NCBI RefSeq assembly: GCF_900142675.1
Contig: NZ_FRBS01000001.1
Span: 1-64,000, forward strand
From: Shouchella rhizosphaerae
Lineage (GTDB): Bacteria > Bacillota > Bacilli > Bacillales > Bacillaceae_D
Length of the DNA stretch: 64,000 nucleotides
Reading direction: 5' to 3'
How positions within the stretch are numbered: position 1 is the first letter of the stretch; every line of letters starts with the position of its first letter. Both the position numbers and the translations under genes were made by a program. Under the pieces are notes generated by a model. It was not told the origin of the DNA, searched no databases, and worked only from the letters and a program-made list of their open reading frames with translations. Shown in pieces: positions 16,812 to 32,520 of the stretch.

Positions 16812-17187
16812 ATTCTCATCTGGAGTACGAATGTAAAATTACCGGTATAAGAACAAAATAAATACAACAGGACGAGGTTACAGTCGATCGATCGGCGGCC
16901 TTGCTCTGCTTATCGGCAGGATAACTTAATTTAGTTGATGGTGCCTCAATTTGGGGTGAGACATGAAGCAACTTAGTATCAATTCAGTTTGAAGTTTTAG
17001 GTCTATGGTGTTGGGAATGATTACGATTGTCGACTCATGATGAGCGTTCAGATTATCGTAACCGCAATTTTGCCACTCGGGTCAGGTGACAAGTGGGATA
17101 AAACAAGAGCCAACAACTGGCGTCGGTCGATGTCTGCTGTTACAATAGAATTACTGATTTTCAATGTAATGAGGTGACGTTAATTTA
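16812..17187. other. Non-coding stretch, no recognisable feature
   Basis: About 375 bases between the TetR and Rrf2 genes. No complete frame, strong hairpin or consensus promoter stands out. Confidence 0.4.
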
Positions 17188-17634
17188 ATGCCAACTGAAA
17201 AATACACGCCAACAGCAACGCCCAAATGGTTGGGCTATGCCCTTCAGTCACTCGTGTTCATGTCCGGCCAGCAAAAGTCGCATTGTGCCAGCAATGAAAT
17301 TGCTGAACATGTTTGCAGTGAAGCCACGTTAACGCGCCGCGTCCTGTCCCGACTGGTCAAGGCGGGAATCGTTGAGGCAAGAGAAGGGCGAGAGGGTGGC
17401 TATGCCCTTCGCAGAAAACCGGAGGATATCTCTTTTGCTGATGTATACCGGGCGATTCAGGTGGTCGATCCGCTTTATACGGGTTTGCTTGATACAACCA
17501 CCAGCGGGCCTTTTGCCCAAGAAACCCGGGAAATGTTCACTACCGTGATTAATGAGTCGGAAAAACAGTTAATTCAGGTTTTAGAGCGGCATACAATAGC
17601 GGATTTGATCAAGAAAATCAACGAGGGAAATTAA
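17188..17634 (+). CDS. Rrf2 family transcription regulator
   Basis: 148 residues. The winged helix (about 10-80) shows NEIAEHVCSEATLTRRVLSR and the family wing AREGREGGYALRRKPEDIS. Residues 85-148 form the long dimerisation helix. The three clustered cysteines that bind Fe-S in IscR-type members are not present, and only Cys31 and Cys41 lie in the DNA-binding part, so it resembles the YwnA/CymR-like or redox-thiol type. It precedes a drug exporter whose promoter region has matching palindromes, so it is probably the repressor of that exporter. Confidence 0.8.
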   Translation: MPTEKYTPTATPKWLGYALQSLVFMSGQQKSHCASNEIAEHVCSEATLTRRVLSRLVKAGIVEAREGREGGYALRRKPEDISFADVYRAIQVVDPLYTGLLDTTTSGPFAQETREMFTTVINESEKQLIQVLERHTIADLIKKINEGN

Positions 17635-17659
17635 AATAACTTTAAACCCCAAACTGTGA

Positions 17660-17688
17660 TTGACAAACACACAGTTTATGAATATAAT
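17660..17688 (+). promoter_or_regulatory. Consensus promoter of the DHA2 exporter
   Basis: TTGACA (17660-17665) and TATAAT (17683-17688) are 17 bases apart, a perfect sigma-A promoter. The spacer holds ACACAGTTTA, half of the dyad found downstream. Confidence 0.85.
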
Positions 17689-17691
17689 GTA

Positions 17692-17745
17692 ACTTGAGAT
17701 ATCTCAAGTTTTTTTACTTTAAACTGTGATTTTAAAAATCACAGT
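17692..17745. promoter_or_regulatory. Palindromes between promoter and exporter start
   Basis: ACTTGAGATATCTCAAGT (17692-17709) is a perfect palindrome at the expected transcription start and is followed by seven T. A second dyad, ACTGTGATTTT with AAAATCACAGT (17723-17745), lies just before the gene. AAACTGTGATT also occurs at 17651 overlapping the -35. The ACTGTGA sites are the likely Rrf2 operators, and the first palindrome may also terminate the Rrf2 transcript. Confidence 0.6.
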
Positions 17746-17763
17746 ATGGAAGGGAGGATTCAT

Positions 17764-19197
17764 TTGACTGACATGCAGGCTTTTTCCATACGAACGATTA
17801 TCGGTCCTTTAATTGCCGTTGTCGTTGGCATGGTGATGGTCATACTGGACAGCACCATTGTCAATGTGGCTTTTCCAAAGTTTCAACAGGAGTTTGGGAG
17901 TACATTGGCTGTCGTGCAGTGGACGTTCACCGGCTATACCCTGGCGTTGTCTGCTGTCATTCCACTTGCAGGCTGGATGACGGACAAATTCGGAGCTAAG
18001 CGTATTTTTTTAACAACCGTTGCGCTCTTTACCTTGGGATCCGTACTATGTGGAATGGCGCAAACCATTGAGCAATTGATTATTTTCCGGATTGTGCAAG
18101 GTATTGGCGGAGGCATGGTAACTCCGATTGGCATGGCGGTGATATACAGGCTGACGCCGTCCCATAAGATAGGGGAAGTAATGGGTGTGCTAGGTATCCC
18201 TATCCTGATTGCTCCTGCGCTCGGTCCTGTATTATCGGGTTGGCTTCTCGATTATGTATCTTGGCAATGGATTTTTCTCATTAATCTGCCGATTGGCATT
18301 ATAGCCATTGCGTTAGGGATGAAATGGTTGCCAGCCTTTCCGCAGGGTGAAGTGCCAAAGCTCGATACACTTGGCATGATACTGGCCCCGTTGGCTTTCT
18401 CGATGCTGGCCTTTGGAGTAGGCGAAGGGGCCGTAGACTGGACGTCCACCCGCACTGTGGTTGCCCTTACTGTCGGAGCCGCGGCATTGGTCGGATTGAT
18501 TGTAACAGAGCTGCGGCACAGGCAGCCTTTGCTTGAATTGCGTGTGTTCAAATCTTCTGATTTCACACGAGGTATTCTGCTTTTATGGCTTGTGCAAATT
18601 GCATTGTTTGGCGTGATGGTCCTGTTTCCGGTATATCTCCAGACTGTTCGGGGATATTCGCCGCTTGATACGGGATTGATCATGCTTGCTCAAGCGGTCG
18701 GTTCGATCCTTTTCACGCCTGTTGGGGGGCGTCTGTTTGACAAGGTAGGCGCCCGTCCGTTGGCGCTGATCGGTTTAACCGCCGTATCGGCTGCGCTTTT
18801 CTGGCTATCGCACGTTTCACCGGAGGCTGGGCTGACGATGCTTTTGCTGCCCTTGTTTATGATTGGTTCCGGCATGGGGCTTATTATGATGGCGCTAAAT
18901 ACTCACGTCCTCAATTCCGCTCCGCTTGATCTCGTCGGAAGAGTTACTTCACTCACTACAGCAGCGCAGCATGTAATAACATCTTTCGCGGTAGCGGGGC
19001 TTACGGGATTTCTAGCCTTTCGAATGAATGAGACGACTATGAATGTGGAGTTACAAAGTATTGCCGCAGCTTACAGTGATACGTTTCTATTGACTGCAAT
19101 ATTGGCAGCCATAGGTATCGTTCTCAGTCTTACACTGCGGAAGCCACAGCTTCTTGATTCAGCCGTTCCGACACAAGGACATGATACCAATAAGTGA
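17764..19197 (+). CDS. MFS multidrug exporter, DHA2 family (EmrB/QacA/LmrB type)
   Basis: About 477 residues with 14 predicted membrane segments. Helix 1 carries the DHA2 signature LDSTIVNVAFP. Motif A is in GWMTDKFGAKRIF and the antiporter motif C in helix 5 (GIPILIAPALGPVLSGWL). The protein should export lipophilic drugs by proton antiport. The start is TTG 17764, six bases after AGGGAGG. The upstream in-frame ATG (17746) overlaps the Shine-Dalgarno sequence. It is followed by a small membrane protein gene in the same transcript. Confidence 0.88.
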   Translation: MTDMQAFSIRTIIGPLIAVVVGMVMVILDSTIVNVAFPKFQQEFGSTLAVVQWTFTGYTLALSAVIPLAGWMTDKFGAKRIFLTTVALFTLGSVLCGMAQTIEQLIIFRIVQGIGGGMVTPIGMAVIYRLTPSHKIGEVMGVLGIPILIAPALGPVLSGWLLDYVSWQWIFLINLPIGIIAIALGMKWLPAFPQGEVPKLDTLGMILAPLAFSMLAFGVGEGAVDWTSTRTVVALTVGAAALVGLIVTELRHRQPLLELRVFKSSDFTRGILLLWLVQIALFGVMVLFPVYLQTVRGYSPLDTGLIMLAQAVGSILFTPVGGRLFDKVGARPLALIGLTAVSAALFWLSHVSPEAGLTMLLLPLFMIGSGMGLIMMALNTHVLNSAPLDLVGRVTSLTTAAQHVITSFAVAGLTGFLAFRMNETTMNVELQSIAAAYSDTFLLTAILAAIGIVLSLTLRKPQLLDSAVPTQGHDTNK

Positions 19198-19220
19198 ATA
19201 AAAGAGAGGAGTTGCTTGTC

Positions 19221-19652
19221 ATGCAGACAACGACACAACAACAGATAGCCAGTTCCGCTACGATAGGTAGAACATTAATTGCGGGTTCTGCGGCAGGAGT
19301 GATTTCAGCCATTGTATCTAATCTGCTGGCCTGGGGAATTATCGCGGCCAATGATTTTCAATTCGAAATGTTGAATGGGTTTTCGATTACATTATCCGCA
19401 TTTTTCGCTAATGTAATAGGGGCATTCATTTACCGTTTTTGGCAAAAGAGATCGTCCAGGGCAGTAATATACTATGCAATCTTGAGTTTGGCAATGGCTG
19501 TACTGATGACCATCAACACGGCCTCAAATCCGATGGAGCCTCATATTGGAACCGTGGCCAATCCCTTGCATTTTGCAGTCGCGTTATTATCGTTGGTGTT
19601 AATCCCAAAATTCATGCAGCGCCCTGCCGCGGCAGTGCCGCCAAAAGGTTAG
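19221..19652 (+). CDS. Small four-helix membrane protein (DUF6069-like)
   Basis: About 143 residues with four hydrophobic segments (roughly 15-40, 50-75, 82-100 and 112-130), a short N-terminal Gln/Thr-rich tail and a Pro-rich C-terminus. The pattern (TLIAGSAAGVISAIVSNLLAW, then a final SLVLIPKFM) suggests a DUF6069-type protein. ATG 19221 follows GAGAGGAG. It lies 23 bases after the exporter and is probably co-transcribed. The function is unknown. Confidence 0.6.
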   Translation: MQTTTQQQIASSATIGRTLIAGSAAGVISAIVSNLLAWGIIAANDFQFEMLNGFSITLSAFFANVIGAFIYRFWQKRSSRAVIYYAILSLAMAVLMTINTASNPMEPHIGTVANPLHFAVALLSLVLIPKFMQRPAAAVPPKG

Positions 19653-19713
19653 CAGCCGGGCCGTGTGACGACCGAAAAAAACCTCATTCAGAACAATTCG
19701 CAAGGTCATAGAT

Positions 19714-19741
19714 GCTTTCTACTTTGTAGGGAGCTTTTTTT
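19714..19741 (+). terminator. Terminator of the exporter operon
   Basis: The hairpin GCTTTCTAC/GTAGGGAGC with a TTT loop is followed by eight T. The same hairpin sequence occurs at 5381-5404. Confidence 0.85.
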
Positions 19742-23484: not shown

Positions 23485-23799
23485 CTAGTCTTTATCTGAA
23501 TTAACATTCATAAACCCAAGCCTAGGCTAATTTACAATAACCAATAATAACATTGTAGGATTTCTGGAGTGGATAAAGGTATTGAGCGAAGTGGCTCACC
23601 ATAGTCCCAAAAATTTAGTTTTCATTTTTAATCAAGGAATGCGCGTGTATGACTACAATGAAAAACACAATTATTACTTTTTGGTTACTATATAACTAAA
23701 AAGTGTGTACTTTTCAATTTGACACGTTTGATTCATAATGACTCTTGTGCGATATAGGGAAGGAATGAGGTTTCAAAAACATGTTAAAGGGGTGTGCCT

Positions 23800-24135
23800 A
23801 TGTCCACAAATCAAGTTATTCTAAATATCCGTTTCAAAATAAAACCAGGTAAGAAAGAAATTTTTCGCGACAGTCTCTTTGCCATGATTAACAATTTCAG
23901 AAACGAACCTACCTTCGTAACGGCCATCGTCTCCGATGATATCGATAATTCGAATGATCTTGTTATTTATGAAATCTGGCAAGGTACAAGAGATCGTTGG
24001 ATACAGGAAGAATTTCCAAAGCCTTATCGCAAAGAATACGAAGAAGCTCTTACTAGTTTAATTGATGACAGAATTGTTAGCTGGCTTGAGCCTATCGGTG
24101 AATGGGGAAGCCAATTGACAAATGTTACTCGTTAA
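23800..24135 (+). CDS. Antibiotic biosynthesis monooxygenase (ABM) domain protein
   Basis: 111 residues with a single ferredoxin-like ABM domain (VILNIRFKIKPGKKEIFRDSL, VIYEIWQGTRDRWIQEEF). Family members are cofactor-free quinol monooxygenases (YgiN type) or haem-degrading enzymes. Here the neighbouring HxlR regulator makes quinone detoxification the more likely role. ATG 23800 is 7 bases after AAAGGGG. A GTG two codons earlier has poor spacing. A 361-base gap with a T-rich putative promoter separates it from the regulator. Confidence 0.75.
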   Translation: MSTNQVILNIRFKIKPGKKEIFRDSLFAMINNFRNEPTFVTAIVSDDIDNSNDLVIYEIWQGTRDRWIQEEFPKPYRKEYEEALTSLIDDRIVSWLEPIGEWGSQLTNVTR

Positions 24136-25210
24136 GTAAGACGTGATAATCCTAGTGGAGGCTTGATAAGCTCCCACTACCATTTTTATTTTTTGGTTGA
24201 AACAGCGGTTTTCTTGCCGCTGTTTTACGACAATCTGTTTGGAGAGTCGTTTGGATTAAGTCCTTGAATCCGCTAAAGATAACGTTCCACTGAGCTGTGT
24301 TGGGCAAGAGAGGCATGATCGTCCTTGCCTCGGAGAAAAGCAGTATCTAAACAGTAGATGGGGGAATGGCACAAAGCTAAACTTATTTTTAGTTCGGTGC
24401 AAAACAGCAGAGAGGAATGGGGCCTCGACAGTTCTTTATTTGTTTAATTATTGAATTGTAAAAAATTAAACTAAAGAAGCTTATTAAATGAATAATACAG
24501 AACAGATTGTAATGATTTTACACCTCGCTCATTCCAAAAAAGCTAAAATTTGACCATTATATCACATAAAAAGAATTGCAACTGATCCTTATCATTAAAC
24601 CAAGCCTTTGGCATATAAATAGAACATTCTTGAAATATGGACTGCTGGCGCCGAAACATGGTACACTTTATACTAAGATTTTATTCTTTGCATAGCGAAA
24701 GGAGCTGTATTTAAATGACTGCAACTTTTGAGGTGTCCATTACTTAAAACTGAATATGGGCGTAATACTGATTTAATGGGGATAGTGCCCTTTTCTTCAG
24801 TATGCCAAAAAGTAACCTTTCGTGAATACTGAAGCGTTGGTCAAAAGCAACGGTAGCACACTCTAGGGTGTGTTATTTTTATGCAAAATTCTTGAATGGC
24901 CCGCAGCAGACAGCGATGAACGGTTGTTTGCTGCGGTATTTTTGCGTCAAGAAATTTTTTGATTTATGCGAGATAGATGTTTTTAAGGGCTTTTTTCGGC
25001 AAAATCCGGTCTCTGAATCAAGCATCAAAGCGATCCGGTTTATGCCATCAAAGTAGCCTTTGAAAGTGGAGAATGACTCATCGAGTGCTGGGACAGCTAC
25101 CTTACTTTAAAAGGAGGCGGCATTTGTAGAAAATAGAGCGGAATATTTACGTAACAAGATGCTCAGCATGTTGCTTGAAAGTATGGGAAAGAAAAAAGGA
25201 GGAAAAGCCG
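24136..25210. other. Gene-poor 1-kb stretch with several hairpins and decayed fragments
   Basis: No complete gene of normal size is present. A terminator for the ABM gene is at 24153-24190 (TAGTGG../..CCACTA then T-rich). Two further terminator-like hairpins lie at 24855-24880 (CACAC/GTGTG then T-run) and 24901-24944 (CCGCAGCA/TGCTGCGG then TATTTTT). At 24715-24747 an excellent RBS (AAAGGAG) precedes a 10-codon frame, MTATFEVSIT, perhaps the stub of a lost gene. Just before the kinase gene a frame VENRAEYLRNKMLSMLLESM, preceded by GGAGG but broken by a stop, looks like another remnant. Confidence 0.4.
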
Positions 25211-26290
25211 ATGAGCACAGCATTTCATGCGGCGATTAATACAGCCGAAAAATTATTGATTTCTAAAATTCCGGAATTATTTGGTTTGGAAGGTTATTCC
25301 TTTTCTCAAATTCCGCCCCATGATGGAGGTAGGAATTTAGTATACACATGCAAAAAGGCAGGTGAAAAGGAAAAAATGCTTAGGATCGCATTTTTAAGCG
25401 ACAGAAAGAAGGAGGATTTTTTAAGCGAGCTGGAATATGTTCGCTATTTATACGATCACGGCGGCAGCGTTTCAAATGTCGTCGACTCCCAAAAAGGGAA
25501 TCTAGTGGAAGAGATCGCATATGAGAACCAGACGTTCTTTGTCAGTCTGTTTGAACGAGCCAGAGGGAAGAAGCTCGCAGAAAACCATTATCGTTATCGG
25601 GATGGAGCGCCTATCGCTGAATACTTTTATAATTGCGGTAAAACGCTTGGTAAGCTGCACCACTTATCAAAAGAATATAAACCGGTCCATCGGAGGTACG
25701 ATTTTTTTGATAAATATAATAGAGCATATATTGATCAATTGCTCCCGGATTCATTATCTCTGGTTAAGGAAAAACTGTTTCAGCTTCTGAAAACATTGGA
25801 GGGGTTGAACAGGAGTTCCGACCATTATGGCATGGTTCATTTTGATTATAGTGACGGTAATTATCACGTAGATTTTGAAAATGGCGATATTACTGTTTTT
25901 GACTTTGATAACTCTTGCTTCTGTTGGTATATGTACGATTTGGCGAATCTTTGGACGATTGGCGCTGGCTGGATTCGATTTGAAAAAGACAACAGCAAAC
26001 GCAGGGAATTTATGGACGATTATTTTGAAAACGTTCTCGACGGTTACCGATCTGAAACGGAAATCGATGATTTTATGCTGGAGCAACTTCCTTTATTTAT
26101 TCAAGCGATACTTATGGAAAATATGATAGACGCATTTGAGGTGATGCGAAACAATGGAGAAGAGGCAAAATGCGACGAAGAACTGTCGTACCTAATAAAA
26201 TGCTTGGAAGAAGATATTCCATATAAAGGATTTTTCCATAAGATTTACTCATGCGAAGCGCCTTTTGAATATGAAGAACGTAAGATTTAA
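25211..26290 (+). CDS. APH family phosphotransferase (aminoglycoside/homoserine kinase-like)
   Basis: 359 residues. The protein-kinase-like catalytic loop reads HFDYSDGN (His210, Asp212, Asn217), followed by the metal-binding DFDN about 20 residues later. The N-lobe has LRIAFLSDRKKEDFLSELE. The length and the YDLANLW segment resemble the SrkA/homoserine-kinase-II-like branch, so the substrate may be a Ser/Thr residue or a small alcohol and not an aminoglycoside. ATG 25211 follows AGGAGG by 9 bases. The upstream extension of 12 codons is poorly supported. It is monocistronic. Confidence 0.75.
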   Translation: MSTAFHAAINTAEKLLISKIPELFGLEGYSFSQIPPHDGGRNLVYTCKKAGEKEKMLRIAFLSDRKKEDFLSELEYVRYLYDHGGSVSNVVDSQKGNLVEEIAYENQTFFVSLFERARGKKLAENHYRYRDGAPIAEYFYNCGKTLGKLHHLSKEYKPVHRRYDFFDKYNRAYIDQLLPDSLSLVKEKLFQLLKTLEGLNRSSDHYGMVHFDYSDGNYHVDFENGDITVFDFDNSCFCWYMYDLANLWTIGAGWIRFEKDNSKRREFMDDYFENVLDGYRSETEIDDFMLEQLPLFIQAILMENMIDAFEVMRNNGEEAKCDEELSYLIKCLEEDIPYKGFFHKIYSCEAPFEYEERKI

Positions 26291-26397
26291 GGCGGCGGCT
26301 CTGTCTGTCCTTACTTCGCTGATGGGGGCCAACAAGGTAGCTAGCTAACCGAGAATGAATGGCATTCTTCGGGCAATGAAGTGGTTCATCCGTCATT

Positions 26398-26640
26398 ATG
26401 GCGTTTACCCCATTGAAGGGCGATCCGGGCGACTTCTTGCCAAGAATCAAAGGCTTTGAGCGTTCCAGGCTTCATTTTCCAAACAACCCGTGGCTCTTTC
26501 TTGGATGTTTAACTGCACCGGGACGGGTGACGATATAATCAATATGCACATAATTGCTGACAGCCGTTTTCGGCTGATTGGGATGAAAGAGTGCTGTTTA
26601 TAAATCAGCGCTGACATCGGTGTATCTCCTCCCGGCAGTC
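26398..26640 (-). pseudogene. Remnant of a MobP/MobL-type relaxase N-terminus
   Basis: The minus strand reads, through three frames, MSALIYKQHSF, then QPKTAVSNYVHIDYIVTRPG with AVKHPRKSHGLFGK, then MKPGTLKAFDSWQEVARI. The combination YxxYI(V/A)TRPGA plus HGLFG is typical of the first 100 residues of Gram-positive plasmid and ICE relaxases. At least two frameshifts and loss of the rest of the protein make it non-functional. It lies directly downstream of the broken ribbon-helix-helix gene, as in mobilization modules. Confidence 0.5.
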
Positions 26641-27080
26641 GTTCCAGATTTTGATCGAAGGCATCGCCGGAAAGGACACAGCTTTTCGGCATCGTTCAGT
26701 TTCATCTTGGTGTACTCGACAGCCAATTAACGATGTCCGTTCAATTTCTAGAAAGGTGATGTAACGGTGCGTATCGATGAGGTCGGCAATAATCGCAACC
26801 GTGGAATAGTATGCCGCGGCGGACATGATCAGGTCTTTGCTGGCCAGTCCGGCTAATCGATTGCCGAGGCCGTTTATCGCAACGCCAATCTCTTGACGGA
26901 TGATAGTAGTAATGAAATCAATTTCCTGGGTGTAGACTTCGATGGACATCCCTTTTTGAATGAAAGCCCGTCTGAGTCTGCCATGCTGAAATGCTTGGAA
27001 GCCGCGTATTTCTTGAGTGAATCGTACTGTGATTTGGGCAACTTGACGGTGATCTTGTTCGTTTTTTCTCTTCTGGCCAA
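26605..27080 (-). pseudogene. Frameshifted ribbon-helix-helix mobilization protein
   Basis: The minus strand starts MARREKTNKITVKLPKSQYD, followed by SLKKYAASKHFSMAD, a ribbon-helix-helix DNA-binding domain. Near 26965 the frame shifts by one base and continues as AFIQKGMSIEVYTQEIDFIT, then QEIGVAINGLGNRLAG and further helical sequence. The order of RHH accessory protein then relaxase matches MobC-type relaxosome pairs. One indel separates it from an intact gene. Confidence 0.5.
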
Positions 27081-27450
27081 TAGTATCTCCTTTCTCTAAG
27101 ACTGTTGTATAGCGCCATTCGATTGTCGGAAGGAACTACTAAAAAATGCCAGTGGAAGTTCTGCTTTCATGCTGTTTTCTCGCAAAATGACATTTTGCTA
27201 TTCCTGCCTGTACACTACTCCCAAGAGTCCCAATTGGAGGGCCTCTTGGAGAGTGGAAAATCTGAAAAGAATAATCAATGAGAAAAAAGATAGGCGTACA
27301 TATTGGTTTCCTCCATGCTTGTTAGTTAAACCAATAAGAAAAGCAAGAGTATATGAGACTGAAAAAATGGTTACTTTTGGAGGGTTTATGACTTTCGATG
27401 TCGAATATTTTTGACAGAGGATACAATGATTCTAAGGAGTTTAATTCACA

Positions 27451-29103
27451 ATGGAAAAAATAGATAAAATTATTAAGCACTATATTGAAAACCAAGAAGA
27501 CAAAGTCGCTGAGAACGTAACATTTTTGCGAAATAATGTAATTGGTAAATCTAGCAATGAGATCGCTGAATTATTAGCAAATGTTGTACCGGAAGAGACG
27601 GGAGGAATAGTGGCAATTTCGGGATTTTATTATCAATTTCTGGTTGCGATTGAGTACATAATTGACATGCTTAAGGACAAGTGGGATTACATTTTTATAG
27701 AGCATCTGGATGATATTGTAGTTGGAAAAGATAATACGGTAAGGTTCGTCCAAGTGAAGACTAGCGAAAAAGTAAAAATGAACGCTACTTCCAGTCCCGC
27801 ATCGGGCTTATACTATCGTTCACCAATAGCAGGAAGGACGGAAAAAAGAAACGATAGTTGGATTGACAAATTGTTATCCAAGGCTGAACTGCTCCAGCAA
27901 AAAGATGGGTATTTAACTCAGTTTCAGCTATATTCGAGTTACCATATTATAAAAACCAGAGATTTCGATTTCGATGTGTATACAGGCAACTCAAATTACG
28001 ATTTGGACATAGCGGATACCGATCATTTGTTTTTAAAAGTCAGTGCTCCTGTATGTGATAAGAATGGAGAGGTTTATGATTATGAAACAAAATGTGGAGA
28101 AAAAACCAAGGAACTACTAAGAAGATTTTATTTGCATACCGGAACGGGACTTCAGAAATTAGAGGTGTTTGAGGATCATTTGTGTATGAGACTCAGCGAG
28201 TGGCTATTCCACGATGTTGGGGACAGGGTCAGGGTTCATCCAAAGGATCTGAACACTTTAATTGGTCACTTATGCACAAGATGTACATACAGAGATAGTG
28301 CGGAAAGGTTACTTATCACCAGGGATAAATTAGAAGAAATTTTGAGTGAAATCAGAACAAGATGTCTAGACGCAGTGGAGCAAACTACTGAAAAGCATGG
28401 TAACAAATCAACTATTTCTAGAGTTATTGATTCTATAGTTAGTAATAATGAAACCTGTGCTCATGCAGATGCATTCAAAGATAAATTATATACCTATCGT
28501 GAGTATCTTAAACAATGGGTTGATAATGGAGGCAATATTAGATCTCTGATTGAGCGCTATGTGGATGGTACTATTAAAAGCTCAGCTTATGTCAACTTGA
28601 ATGAGATAAACAGGCAGCAAAAATTACTCGATTTTTTCAATATTGTGTTCATCATGATGATCGTCAAGGATTCCTTTCTAGAATTCACTGATTCAAATAA
28701 CCTATTAACTAAGAAATGCACGGTTTCAAATCTTTTATTTTCATTCTTAAGCTTGGAATCAAGAAATAATTTAGAAGCAGGTTTACAGAAGCTTGAATCT
28801 ATCATACAACAATCTGATACAAATGATCATCTTTACTTGTTGGATAAATCGCTTAGAATCGTATTTCAAAATTACGGGGACAGGAGATTTACAGAAACAG
28901 TTCGTCGTGAAATTAAAAGCTTCTCCGAGATTCAAATAGAAGGATTTGAAAATGAGCAACCTCTTAATAAAGTAACATATTATGTTGACATCATCCCAGG
29001 AACGGAAATGAAATTAGACTTCTCGGAAGCCTTGAATGAACAAGATTGTTTCCAAGATAAGATGCAAGAAATATGGAATAAGTATTGCAATGAGGTGAGA
29101 TGA
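27451..29103 (+). CDS. Lamassu/ABC-3C defence nuclease (Cap4/DUF4297-type), LmuA/DdmA-like
   Basis: 550 residues. The N-terminal domain has the DUF4297/Cap4 dsDNA endonuclease pattern: GG-x-VAISGFYYQ (51-62), Glu84 with Asp87/Asp88 in EHLDDIVV, and Gln101-Val-Lys103, together a PD-(D/E)xK active site. The remaining 400 residues are helical and unassigned, and presumably bind the partner subunits. In Lamassu and DdmABC systems the SMC-like subunit senses invading DNA and the nuclease then degrades DNA, causing plasmid loss or abortive infection. ATG 27451 follows TAAGGAG. It is the first gene of a three-gene operon whose ends overlap and is clearly AT-richer than the flanking genes. Confidence 0.82.
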   Translation: MEKIDKIIKHYIENQEDKVAENVTFLRNNVIGKSSNEIAELLANVVPEETGGIVAISGFYYQFLVAIEYIIDMLKDKWDYIFIEHLDDIVVGKDNTVRFVQVKTSEKVKMNATSSPASGLYYRSPIAGRTEKRNDSWIDKLLSKAELLQQKDGYLTQFQLYSSYHIIKTRDFDFDVYTGNSNYDLDIADTDHLFLKVSAPVCDKNGEVYDYETKCGEKTKELLRRFYLHTGTGLQKLEVFEDHLCMRLSEWLFHDVGDRVRVHPKDLNTLIGHLCTRCTYRDSAERLLITRDKLEEILSEIRTRCLDAVEQTTEKHGNKSTISRVIDSIVSNNETCAHADAFKDKLYTYREYLKQWVDNGGNIRSLIERYVDGTIKSSAYVNLNEINRQQKLLDFFNIVFIMMIVKDSFLEFTDSNNLLTKKCTVSNLLFSFLSLESRNNLEAGLQKLESIIQQSDTNDHLYLLDKSLRIVFQNYGDRRFTETVRREIKSFSEIQIEGFENEQPLNKVTYYVDIIPGTEMKLDFSEALNEQDCFQDKMQEIWNKYCNEVR

Positions 29104-29642
29104 TGGATATTTTTAACGCAACTCATAACAGGTTACTTGAAAATGGTTTTGAGGTATTCGACATCAAAGAAATCGAAAAATTAGGAGCCTCATTTTATAA
29201 ATCTTCTATAAATAATGTGGTGTTAAAAAAACTGCATTATAGCAAGGAAATAAATTTGATAAAATCATTCTCAATGGAAATAAGATCGATTTTACTAGAG
29301 GGTAAGGAAAATATCTGGAATACATATTTGCTATTCTGCTTTGGCAGTGAAATTGATTTTGAAACAAACTATAAAATTGAACGAGACACTAAGGCGCTGC
29401 GTAAATATGCAATAAGTAGTGAATTAGACTTGAACCGAGTTCCCTTTTTAGACGAATTTAGGGTGATCAAAAAGCCGATTAAGAATGAAGTAACGTTAGA
29501 AGATGAAAGTATATATCTACAAGAAATCATTCATTTTCTTCAAGAAAGTGATGGGAAGCATAATAAATTGAGCCTAGATCAGTTGGATGTGTTGATGAAT
29601 AAATTATTAAAGATGGTGGAGCAGCGCTATGAAAATAGATAA
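29103..29642 (+). CDS. ABC-3C middle component/LmuC (DdmB)-like protein
   Basis: About 179 residues without catalytic motifs, mainly helical with a Lys/Glu-rich surface (KKLHYSKEINLIKSFSMEIRSI). Size, position between nuclease and SMC-like genes, and the NTYLLFCFG segment match the small middle components of ABC three-component and Lamassu operons, which bridge effector and ATPase. ATG 29103 is 5 bases after GAGGTG, and the preceding ATG (29100) overlaps the nuclease stop codon as ATGA, so translation is coupled. The 3' end overlaps the next gene by 14 bases. Confidence 0.7.
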   Translation: MDIFNATHNRLLENGFEVFDIKEIEKLGASFYKSSINNVVLKKLHYSKEINLIKSFSMEIRSILLEGKENIWNTYLLFCFGSEIDFETNYKIERDTKALRKYAISSELDLNRVPFLDEFRVIKKPIKNEVTLEDESIYLQEIIHFLQESDGKHNKLSLDQLDVLMNKLLKMVEQRYENR

Positions 29643-32307
29643 AATAACTCTTAAAAATTTCAGGAATTATTATGGGGAAGTTTCATTTGATCTAACGAGA
29701 AAAATAACCATTCTGCACGGAGATAACGGATTTGGAAAAAGTTCATTTTTTGACGCCATCGAGTGGTGCTTTACAAGTAAAATTTCGCGAATGAATGGCA
29801 CCGATGCAGAAGTAAAGAGGGATATATTTAACAAACGGTGTAAATTTCAAGAGAATGAGATTTTATCAGTTTCTATTGAATTCGAAGGAAACACATTAAC
29901 CCGATGGTTCAATGTCACTGGAAATATTGATCATGGAAACGACTATGGGAATACGCAGGTTTCCTTGAGTAGTAGGGATGGAAAGCTATATCGAGGGCAA
30001 GTAGATGTTGAAACATTCTTAAAACAAGGGACTTTAGATCAGACAAGTTTTGGACGCGGTAATTATGGACAACTAATTAAACAGACATTTATATTATCTC
30101 AAAGCCAAGTCGCAGATTTTGTTACATCAGAAGAACCTTCTGAACGATTCAGAGCGTTAGCGGACATTATGGGGTTTAGGGCTTTACTAAATGAGTCTGA
30201 TAACATGAAGAAAATACATACTTCTTTAATCAAGCAATCTGAGGTTATACGTAATCAAATTATCTCACTTGAGAATTCGATAAAGGGAAAGGAAGAGGTA
30301 AAAAAGGAAGTCGATATTTTTGAGTTTAATAAGAAACTATACGACATTGGTATTACTGAACTAGATAGCGATCTGGATACTCAAATTGCTCAATCAAACA
30401 GGCAGGCACTGGCTGATAAGATTAACGCTGAGGAATTTTTAGAACTTTACGAGGTGATGAATCTAGAGCGTTTCTATACTGTCAGCATAATTGTAAATCA
30501 AATTTCTAAGAAAGAATCAATTCATGAAAATTTGGAGACCCGAAGAGAAGAAATAAAAGAATTCTTGAAGAAAATAAATCAGAGAACAAGTTCCCTTATA
30601 AAAGAAAGGGAGAACATTCAGAAGTACAATCAAACGCGAACAATTATTCAAGAAAAGGAGCAAGAGTTAGCTGCTTATGACATGAATTCCATAGACTTAA
30701 ATAAAGTCAGAGAGAACCTTAGCGTTTTACGAAAGCAGGCTTCTTCCTTAGAATTTGCGTTGTCTTTTCAGACTACAATAGAACAAAATCTAGAACAACA
30801 AAAAAAATTGCCCGCTAACCGGGAACTTTCCATAAAAAAAGAGGCAACTCTGAGAAAGAGAAAAGAAAAGTTGTTGGTTTTGAAAGAAAAACTATCTTTT
30901 GTAATACAAGAAAATAAGGATAATTTACTACTTCAACTTATTGCAAACATAAAAGATATAAAGGGTTACGTTGTTGCAAATAGCTTGGAGAAATGCCCGG
31001 TGTGCTCTTCTACCCCTGAAGAAAACCTGGAGTCTTGCATTGATCATAATATTCTTTTATATACAACAAAGTTAGAAGAGGATACTTCTTACGTAAGTAA
31101 AGCCATCTCATTAAATACCAAGATTTCGAATAAGTTAGCTAAAATAGCCGAGCGAATCAACGAAACGAACAATAGCATTACTAAAATGAATTTAGAGCTA
31201 GATCGTTTAAAAGAGGAGTACAACAACTACAGAAACAACGATTTGTTTTCTGAAGAACTGAGTCAAGCTGATACTGCCGATTTAAAAGACGAGTTAAGTA
31301 AAGTAAGAGAGGAAATTATTTTACAGCAAAAAATCATTGAATTAATAATCTCTCTTGAAAAACTTAAAGAAGAATTGAAGGATTTAGATAGCGAGTCTTC
31401 TTCAAAGAAAATAAAAACAGAAAACGAGGTAGAACAGTCGATTGAACGAATGACAAGAGCGAGCGATAGAGTAGTAAAACATCGGAACCAAATAGAAAGT
31501 AATATTCAAAAACTGTATTCTGAAATTCAGGATGACCACATTATTTTAAAGCGTCTGCAATCATTTTTAAAGCCTGAACAATATGATATTCCACTTCAAT
31601 CGTTAATTTCAAAAAATAAAAATATGATATCCAGTAATGAAAGGAAGATAAGCAGACTATCGGATATAAACCAAGTGCAGTATGTAATTAGGCACAATCA
31701 GGAAATTCAAACTCAAATTCAAGAAGTCAAAAATACAGTTGAGGATCTTAATAACAAAAAAATTGAAATTGATAAGATTGCTGATTCCCTGAAAAATTAC
31801 AAAATGAAGTTATTTGATTTCTTCGATTCTGATACAAAAGATTATTTAAATGATAGTAATTCTCCTATACAGAAGTATTACAGGTATTTAAATCCGCTTC
31901 CATCTAATAATCTAATTCAATTCGACGGGGCAGATGAAAAACTGTCTATTAAAGTTGTTTTTGAGGATAGATTCGAAGAAAGTAATGCTCAAAATATTCT
32001 GAGTTCCGGGCAACTAAACGTACTAGCGATTTCTATTTTCTTAGCAATTAATGAAGCTCAAAATATCAATGCTCTCGATTTCATTGCAATTGATGATCCC
32101 ATTCAAAATATGGATGATGTAAATCAATACTCAATTTGCGATGTGTTGGGTCAGATTGATAAGCAAATTATTTTCTCTACTCATGACCTAGACTTTGTAA
32201 AACTATTTCTGAAAAAGAATGAATATAAAAAAGATGATATGCAAGTTTTTAGTTTTACAAGCCCGTTTCTTACGCAGAACAAAATACAGCAGATACTTTA
32301 TGAGTGA
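29629..32307 (+). CDS. SMC/Rad50-like ATPase of the Lamassu/ABC-3C system, LmuB/DdmC-like
   Basis: 892 residues. The N-terminal ATPase half has Walker A GDNGFGKS (31-38) and a Q-loop region. Long coiled-coil arms (about 190-430 and 470-730) flank a zinc-hook-like CPVC (456-459). The C-terminal half has the ABC signature LSSGQ (791-795), Walker B ending in Asp822-Asp823 of IDDPIQNMD and an H-loop in STHDLDF. The IDDP form of Walker B is normal for this branch. It should recognise foreign DNA structures or ends and trigger the nuclease. It is the last gene of the operon, and no clear terminator follows. Confidence 0.88.
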   Translation: MKIDKITLKNFRNYYGEVSFDLTRKITILHGDNGFGKSSFFDAIEWCFTSKISRMNGTDAEVKRDIFNKRCKFQENEILSVSIEFEGNTLTRWFNVTGNIDHGNDYGNTQVSLSSRDGKLYRGQVDVETFLKQGTLDQTSFGRGNYGQLIKQTFILSQSQVADFVTSEEPSERFRALADIMGFRALLNESDNMKKIHTSLIKQSEVIRNQIISLENSIKGKEEVKKEVDIFEFNKKLYDIGITELDSDLDTQIAQSNRQALADKINAEEFLELYEVMNLERFYTVSIIVNQISKKESIHENLETRREEIKEFLKKINQRTSSLIKERENIQKYNQTRTIIQEKEQELAAYDMNSIDLNKVRENLSVLRKQASSLEFALSFQTTIEQNLEQQKKLPANRELSIKKEATLRKRKEKLLVLKEKLSFVIQENKDNLLLQLIANIKDIKGYVVANSLEKCPVCSSTPEENLESCIDHNILLYTTKLEEDTSYVSKAISLNTKISNKLAKIAERINETNNSITKMNLELDRLKEEYNNYRNNDLFSEELSQADTADLKDELSKVREEIILQQKIIELIISLEKLKEELKDLDSESSSKKIKTENEVEQSIERMTRASDRVVKHRNQIESNIQKLYSEIQDDHIILKRLQSFLKPEQYDIPLQSLISKNKNMISSNERKISRLSDINQVQYVIRHNQEIQTQIQEVKNTVEDLNNKKIEIDKIADSLKNYKMKLFDFFDSDTKDYLNDSNSPIQKYYRYLNPLPSNNLIQFDGADEKLSIKVVFEDRFEESNAQNILSSGQLNVLAISIFLAINEAQNINALDFIAIDDPIQNMDDVNQYSICDVLGQIDKQIIFSTHDLDFVKLFLKKNEYKKDDMQVFSFTSPFLTQNKIQQILYE

Positions 32308-32520
32308 ATTTTTTACTCTCCAATCTCTGTTCATTGTTGCGGAAAAAAAGTTAGTTTTGGGCAAAAAAGCAACATTATGATCTTCACCAGATCTATAAAG
32401 GTAAAAAGATTTCGTTACTTCTACAACCATTCTTGTCACCTTAAAAGGAAGGTAGTCACAATCTCGATTTTGAGTTGCAAGGGAATAGGAGTCGTAAGAA
32501 GAGTGCTGGCAGCCCCCCCA

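Follow-up and report, generated by a model that had tools for sequence, protein, structure and literature searches.

The window analysed here is a stretch of 64,000 nucleotides from Shouchella rhizosphaerae (assembly GCF_900142675.1, contig NZ_FRBS01000001.1, positions 1–64,000 of the forward strand). It holds a compact operon, lmuA-lmuC-lmuB, which an earlier note on this DNA had proposed to be a defence system of the Lamassu/ABC-3C class, similar to the Vibrio DdmABC system and acquired together with a mobile module. The three open reading frames (ORFs) were found uninterrupted and overlapping, as expected for the coupled genes that the note described:

27451..29103, + strand: lmuA, 550 residues, an N-terminal nuclease of the Cap4/DUF4297, PD-(D/E)XK type (E84, D88, Q101, K103) followed by a C-terminal region of about 360 residues without named domain.
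29103..29642, + strand: lmuC, 179 residues, a middle component of the ABC-3C Middle Component 1 (MC1) type (180 residues from an alternative start at 29100).
29629..32307, + strand: lmuB, 892 residues, an SMC/Rad50-like ATPase with Walker A GDNGFGKSS, zinc hook CPVC (456–459), signature region LSSGQ and Walker B IDDP (821–824).

lmuA and lmuC overlap at the stop codon of the former, the latter having two possible starts (the ATG at 29103 or the one at 29100), and lmuB shares its first 14 bases with the end of lmuC. Sequences resembling ribosome-binding sites are located ahead of lmuA (AAGGAG, 27434–27439) and ahead of both possible lmuC starts (GAGGTGAG, 29092–29099), while the GC (guanine plus cytosine) content of the three genes ranges from 31 to 35%. 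All the residues on which the earlier note had relied were recovered, i.e., G58-F-Y-Y-Q62, E84, D87/D88 and Q101-V-K103 in LmuA, and C456-P-V-C459 and I821-D-D-P824 in LmuB. In a profile search of the host's own genome, LmuB and LmuA were each matched once, in both cases at this operon, and the LmuA profile matched none of the control genomes (0/14).

The three proteins were then compared with the profile libraries PADLOC, Pfam (with its curated cut-offs) and NCBIfam. LmuA matched PADLOC LmuA (3.3e-27) and Pfam Cap4_nuclease (1.1e-10, above the curated cut-off). LmuC matched Pfam MComp1, the ABC-3C Middle Component 1 model (1.8e-09, above the curated cut-off), and PADLOC LmuC (7.4e-06), its only other Pfam match at E<=1 being a sub-threshold one to DUF5071. 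LmuB matched PADLOC LmuB (4e-59) together with Pfam SMC_N (1.2e-13) and AAA_23 (8.5e-12), both above their curated cut-offs. Profiles match all three proteins, which confirms the operon as Lamassu/ABC-3C with Cap4 as its effector, and the PADLOC comparison that the earlier note had recommended gave LmuA, LmuC and LmuB in turn. In NCBIfam, neither LmuA nor LmuC had a match at E <= 1, and LmuB was matched by ten models (including RecF, Rad50, SMC, arcadin-4, an archaeal SMC-related protein and CbiO), all below cut-off. Sequence searches of the PDB led to “Anti-bacteriophage protein A” (8zue) for LmuA and to nothing meaningful for LmuC, and none of the searches with the three proteins returned a row named Lamassu, Lmu or Ddm. 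From these comparisons, the operon is most probably (with a probability of about 0.87) a three-gene (type II) Lamassu/ABC-3C defence system, horizontally acquired and, as far as its sequence tells, apparently intact. The defence family to which it belongs is already described, and within it the operon is ordinary and well supported.

Relatives of the operon were collected by a scan of GTDB contigs, which gave 15 loci (L002–L016), with ORFs listed for nine of them (L002–L010), so that gene order is covered for these and not for L011–L016. The three-gene order was found at eight of the 15 loci (L002–L008 and L010), the ninth locus examined, L009, being broken. Across the three-gene loci, protein lengths vary from 538 to 580 residues for LmuA, 178 to 225 for LmuC and 892 to 986 for LmuB. 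Rossellomorea sp. BNER (L002) and the Bacillus-like L003–L008 share the whole operon with the window, their LmuB being 29–45% identical over the full length, and differ from it by ordinary divergence and by their flanking genes. Divergence runs in parallel among the three proteins (their pairwise identities correlate at 0.94–0.98 over 36 pairs), although common ancestry alone also gives such values. In the nine aligned operons, the LmuB Walker A core, CPVC hook, IDDP motif with Asp823, and signature residues S792, S793 and Q795 are invariant (9/9), and so are LmuA E84, D88, Q101 and K103. When the alignment of LmuA was extended to 14 proteins (window included), D88, Q101 and K103 were kept in all of them and E84 in 13, the remaining one having Asp; in L006, QAK replaces QVK. 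MComp1 was matched by eight of the nine aligned middle proteins (Pfam, E<=1).

The distribution of LmuB was assessed by a profile search across 397 genomes of the host's order (E <= 1e-10), in which two candidates were scored per genome, counts being therefore lower bounds. Matches were obtained in at least 20 genomes and were near-full-length in at least eight, the window included; one more genome, G292, carries LmuB in pieces, and its coordinates are nearly equal to those of L009, so that both are probably the same genome. Among the 12 other genomes of the genus no full LmuB was detected, the match in G002 covering residues 3–54 only, in a frame of 385 residues. Seven other full-length LmuB loci were inspected, and LmuA and LmuC profile matches were found upstream in five of them (L087–L091). 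The other two carry different effectors. That of L092 is a trypsin-like protease with a Pfam CTD5 C-terminal domain, adjoining a metallo-hydrolase, while L093 encodes another protein with CTD5. They have the LmuB family in common with the operon, as well as a middle component, which is MC1 by Pfam in L092 and matches the LmuC profile in L093. Since these loci carry other effectors, the LmuB family swaps them, in agreement with the Lamassu description in the review literature. Furthermore, LmuB matches were present in 17 plasmid records. In the two that were examined, from Planococcus (L085) and Priestia, a first gene is followed by one that NCBI annotates as “ABC-three component system middle component 1” and then by an SMC/AAA ATPase, with restriction genes nearby. 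In the phage collection, LmuB matched a single record over 46 residues, and a search for LmuA relatives in viral contigs gave 22 pattern matches, none of them confirmed. Besides, the exact motif at the end of GlmS was sought at 24 loci, and in three of them (L007:4177, L091:1389 and L092:1397) a Lamassu-type operon was located 0.5–1.6 kb downstream of glmS. The neighbourhood of glmS is a site used by Tn7.

Several results weigh against the Lamassu assignment. The promoter-like and terminator-like sites at the operon occur at the level expected from shuffled sequence or chance. LmuC scores modestly against its PADLOC profile, and in L002, the closest relative, PADLOC does not recognize the middle protein at 1e-5. 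Pfam Cap4_nuclease is matched by only six of the nine aligned LmuA (E<=1) and by three of the five further LmuA from L087–L091 (E<=0.1), L087 and L089 being without a match. On the Planococcus plasmid, the first protein matches HamA rather than LmuA, and the middle protein has no PADLOC match at 1e-3, though the ATPase is an LmuB (3.2e-66). Finally, the C-terminal 360 residues of LmuA, which are expected to dock to LmuB and LmuC, could not be placed in any family of PADLOC or Pfam at the thresholds applied.

The lack of a promoter above chance could also be explained if the operon were a Lamassu relic whose frames are uninterrupted although it is silent or has lost its activity. Decay is indeed seen around this family: the mobilization genes adjoining the operon are degraded (see below), in Heyndrickxia sporothermodurans (L009:1786–9452) a decayed relative has its LmuB split into three pieces that are set apart by other ORFs, and a partial LmuB match in G304 holds four stops. 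However, all three frames of the operon are complete and have kept their ribosome-site-like sequences and conserved motifs despite the decayed neighbours, which makes a relic unlikely. The description of the system as intact in the earlier note was thus borne out in terms of complete frames and conserved motifs.

The resemblance of LmuB to Rad50, in both its ATPase and its hook, raises the question of a Rad50/SbcC-like nuclease-ATPase set devoted to chromosome repair rather than defence. PDB sequence searches with LmuB returned Rad50, SMC and related ATPases, the best profile matches being Rad50 chains. Instead, a Cap4 effector and an MC1 partner accompany the ATPase, near-full-length LmuB is patchily distributed among the 397 genomes, other effectors take the place of LmuA in L092 and L093, and the surrounding island is missing from two sibling species. 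Defence genes also neighbour some of the relatives, with BREX PglZ in L003, a type I restriction-modification system in L004 and a type III one in L010 (four flanking ORFs, chosen for their defence-like look, in three of the eight three-gene relatives). A repair role was rejected on distribution and context and is considered very improbable.

A third explanation, i.e., a Hachiman-like (HamAB) system or another one built on a Cap4/DUF1837 nuclease, originates from the matches of LmuA to PADLOC HamA profiles, the best of which reaches 1.3e-12. The best LmuA profile is far better, and the partner genes encode an SMC-like ATPase and an MC1 protein but no helicase (HamB was looked for in the operon alone). 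Unless a helicase encoded elsewhere acts as the partner, Hachiman is ruled out by this gene content, and it has next to no credibility here. Wadjet (JetABCD, with the JetD nuclease) was also discarded: the operon has three genes, and no Jet match occurs among the PADLOC matches listed (for LmuB, the best 25 of 32).

Within the Lamassu family, the operon resembles type II/ABC-3C systems with Cap4 (LmuA-LmuC-LmuB) in gene order, Cap4 nuclease, small middle component and zinc-hook SMC-like ATPase, whereas the C-terminal part of its LmuA has no match among PADLOC and Pfam families. With 892 residues, its LmuB is longer than the Lamassu LmuB of about 650 residues described in PMC10586767, but this size is not unusual since the PADLOC LmuB profiles matched are 611–1213 long. 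The likeness to Vibrio DdmABC put forward in the earlier note holds for gene order (nuclease, small protein, SMC-like protein) and for the Cap4 domain of the first protein, as described in PMC12409362; it does not extend to the subtype. According to the same text DdmB carries a DUF6521 domain, whereas the middle protein of the operon is of the MC1 type, DdmABC being compared by description and not by sequence. In addition, the Walker B of LmuB generally shows a Glu-to-Gln change according to section 8 of PMC10586767, whereas the operon has IDDP, i.e., Glu to Asp. Because the middle protein is MC1 and not DUF6521, and the Walker B residue Asp and not Gln, DdmABC was excluded as the exact subtype and the operon was classified as a Cap4-MC1 sort of Lamassu type II/ABC-3C. 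The DDPxQ pattern was observed in 28 ORFs including the window copy, not all of which are established as LmuB. A pattern scan for D[EDQ]P left the ATPase ORFs of L017, L024, L026, L031, L032 and L082 unmatched, and L027 showed another form.

The C-terminal region of LmuA was also searched by itself. Residues 190–550 alone matched no PADLOC family (E<=0.001) and no Pfam family at the thresholds used, in line with the earlier note, which had seen no obvious domain there. No ABC-3C C-terminal domain (CTD) model was found among the Pfam matches of the nine LmuA either (E<=1). A region without assigned family is also present in the aligned relatives (14 LmuA, window included), and in eight of eight comparisons with the window it diverges faster than the nuclease (e.g., 46% versus 60% identity with L002). 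Because the alignment of whole LmuA to a PADLOC LmuA profile extends to residue 463, a remote relation of this C-terminus to other LmuA tails is likely. In contrast to the effectors of L092 and L093, which end in CTD5, it showed no detectable relation to this domain, and its identification as CTD5 was unsupported (hhalign probability of 0.6%, a weak test with a shallow template of two sequences). In PMC10586767 the C-terminal domains of LmuA are called variable, so that a described CTD type is not obligatory. This region represents a concrete target to understand how LmuA is held and released.

For relatives of the operon, PMC10586767, PMC12409362 and PMC12904381 describe LmuB as a sensor of DNA ends or hairpins, with freed LmuA forming a tetramer in which Cap4 degrades DNA. 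By analogy, the LmuB dimer and LmuC would keep LmuA inactive, and the LmuB complex would sample DNA for aberrant ends or hairpins arising in phage or plasmid replication. Binding of such DNA would free LmuA, which may oligomerise and then cut DNA indiscriminately, the infected or plasmid-bearing cell dying or shedding the invader. As the C-terminus of LmuA has no match among PADLOC and Pfam families, both its release and its oligomerisation are extrapolated from distant relatives. The Walker B Asp found in place of the usual catalytic Glu suggests a slow ATP turnover, and because of this LmuB could act as a switch rather than a motor. As a more speculative extension, which we consider doubtful, the operon could represent a distinct Cap4-MC1 branch of Lamassu, thinly spread across the host's order. 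In such a branch, the Cap4 nuclease would have a docking domain of an undescribed type at its C-terminus where others have CTD5, the natural Glu-to-Asp Walker B ATPase would serve as a slow one-way switch and the trigger could differ from the hairpin or end sensing of DdmABC. A literature search found no paper on Cap4-MC1 Lamassu as a separate type, a weak negative as the main Lamassu papers lay outside this search. The operon thus adds a compact, uninterrupted Cap4-MC1 Lamassu and leaves the knowledge of the Lamassu family unchanged.

The operon lies in an island, which was delimited by comparing the window with three siblings (four genomes in total) and which comprises or adjoins the following features:

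24488..24526, + strand: a second ABM-like gene, of which only the first 13 codons are present, cut at the left edge of the island and uninterrupted in sibling L054.
24527..32364, no strand: island of about 7.8 kb, absent from two sibling species (blastn against siblings).
25175..26290, + strand: APH/choline-kinase-like phosphotransferase (Pfam APH, 5e-22), cargo of the island and not part of the Lamassu system.
26386..27135, − strand: degraded remnants, in several frames, of an RHH (CopG-like) gene and a MobL/MobA-type relaxase, with homology to MT836959.1.

In blastn comparisons, the siblings L054 and L055 align with the window up to position 24526 and resume at 32365, with about 0.56 kb between these points in the siblings, a stretch that holds the ABM-like gene. 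As these two species are without the insert, the bounds of the island could be set at about 24527–32364. Its GC content is 36.5%, whereas the window outside the island has about 44%. The neighbouring first ABM copy (23794–24135) matches Pfam ABM (3.8e-08), and on the downstream side a GH42 gene shows 97% identity with its counterpart in the three siblings. In the third sibling (genome G010, L056:5347–8411), the slot is filled by ORFs for helicases (ResIII/DEAD and Helicase_C), which lie in two frames that overlap, and the end points differ. The PADLOC matches of this insert are of the shared-helicase kind, the best being PbeA (7.9e-10) and mREase_IV (5.7e-07). The locus is therefore a variable slot, occupied by Lamassu in one of the four genomes compared, by a helicase insert in another and by neither in the other two. 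The bounds of the island and the different insert of the third sibling are new from this analysis, and since siblings carry the site without the insert, a clean comparison with and without the system is possible. Regarding the phosphotransferase, its matches in 12 other genomes of the genus are at most 30% identical, while its DNA (25310–26289) is 69% identical to a replicon of Paenibacillus cellulosilyticus. In addition, further upstream, another stretch (window 16873–19732, about 2.9 kb) does not align to L054 and L055, which carry other sequence there.

The mobilization scar sits between the phosphotransferase gene and lmuA. It matched MT836959.1 by blastn against the whole phage collection (3e-8) and by tblastn against this record alone (9e-28 and 9e-11, E-values for a subject of 8 kb). 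In MT836959.1, adjoining uninterrupted ORFs match RHH_1 (9.9e-07), MobL (3e-08) and Relaxase (9.8e-06), all above cut-off, the relaxase ORF running past the end of the record. This corroborates the broken RHH and relaxase genes that the earlier note had placed just upstream of the operon. Seven scar fragments searched with Pfam gave none above cut-off, two fragments compared with plasmids by tblastn had no match, and blastn of the scar against plasmids returned three rows at chance level. The scar DNA occurs once in the host's own genome, and among 198 relatives the search gave the copy of the window and, besides it, two short stretches matched over 25 and 36 bases. The operon could have been acquired with the mobile module, both lying in the same sibling-absent island, but arrival in a single event is not backed by clear end repeats, and no integrase was noticed among the ORFs listed in the island. 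At its ends, the search for repeats gave a single 9-mer in common (24535 and 32362, against 0.17 expected) and, in AT-rich sequence, two inverted 9-mers that overlap each other, which was taken as no evidence of target duplication. As judged by its gene content, MT836959.1 looks like a contig of a mobilizable element rather than a phage. Because the scar resembles its linked RHH/relaxase pair, a mobilizable element was once present at this locus. MT836959.1 (L059), filed as an unverified bacteriophage, also carries a DUF3991 gene besides the RHH and relaxase genes.

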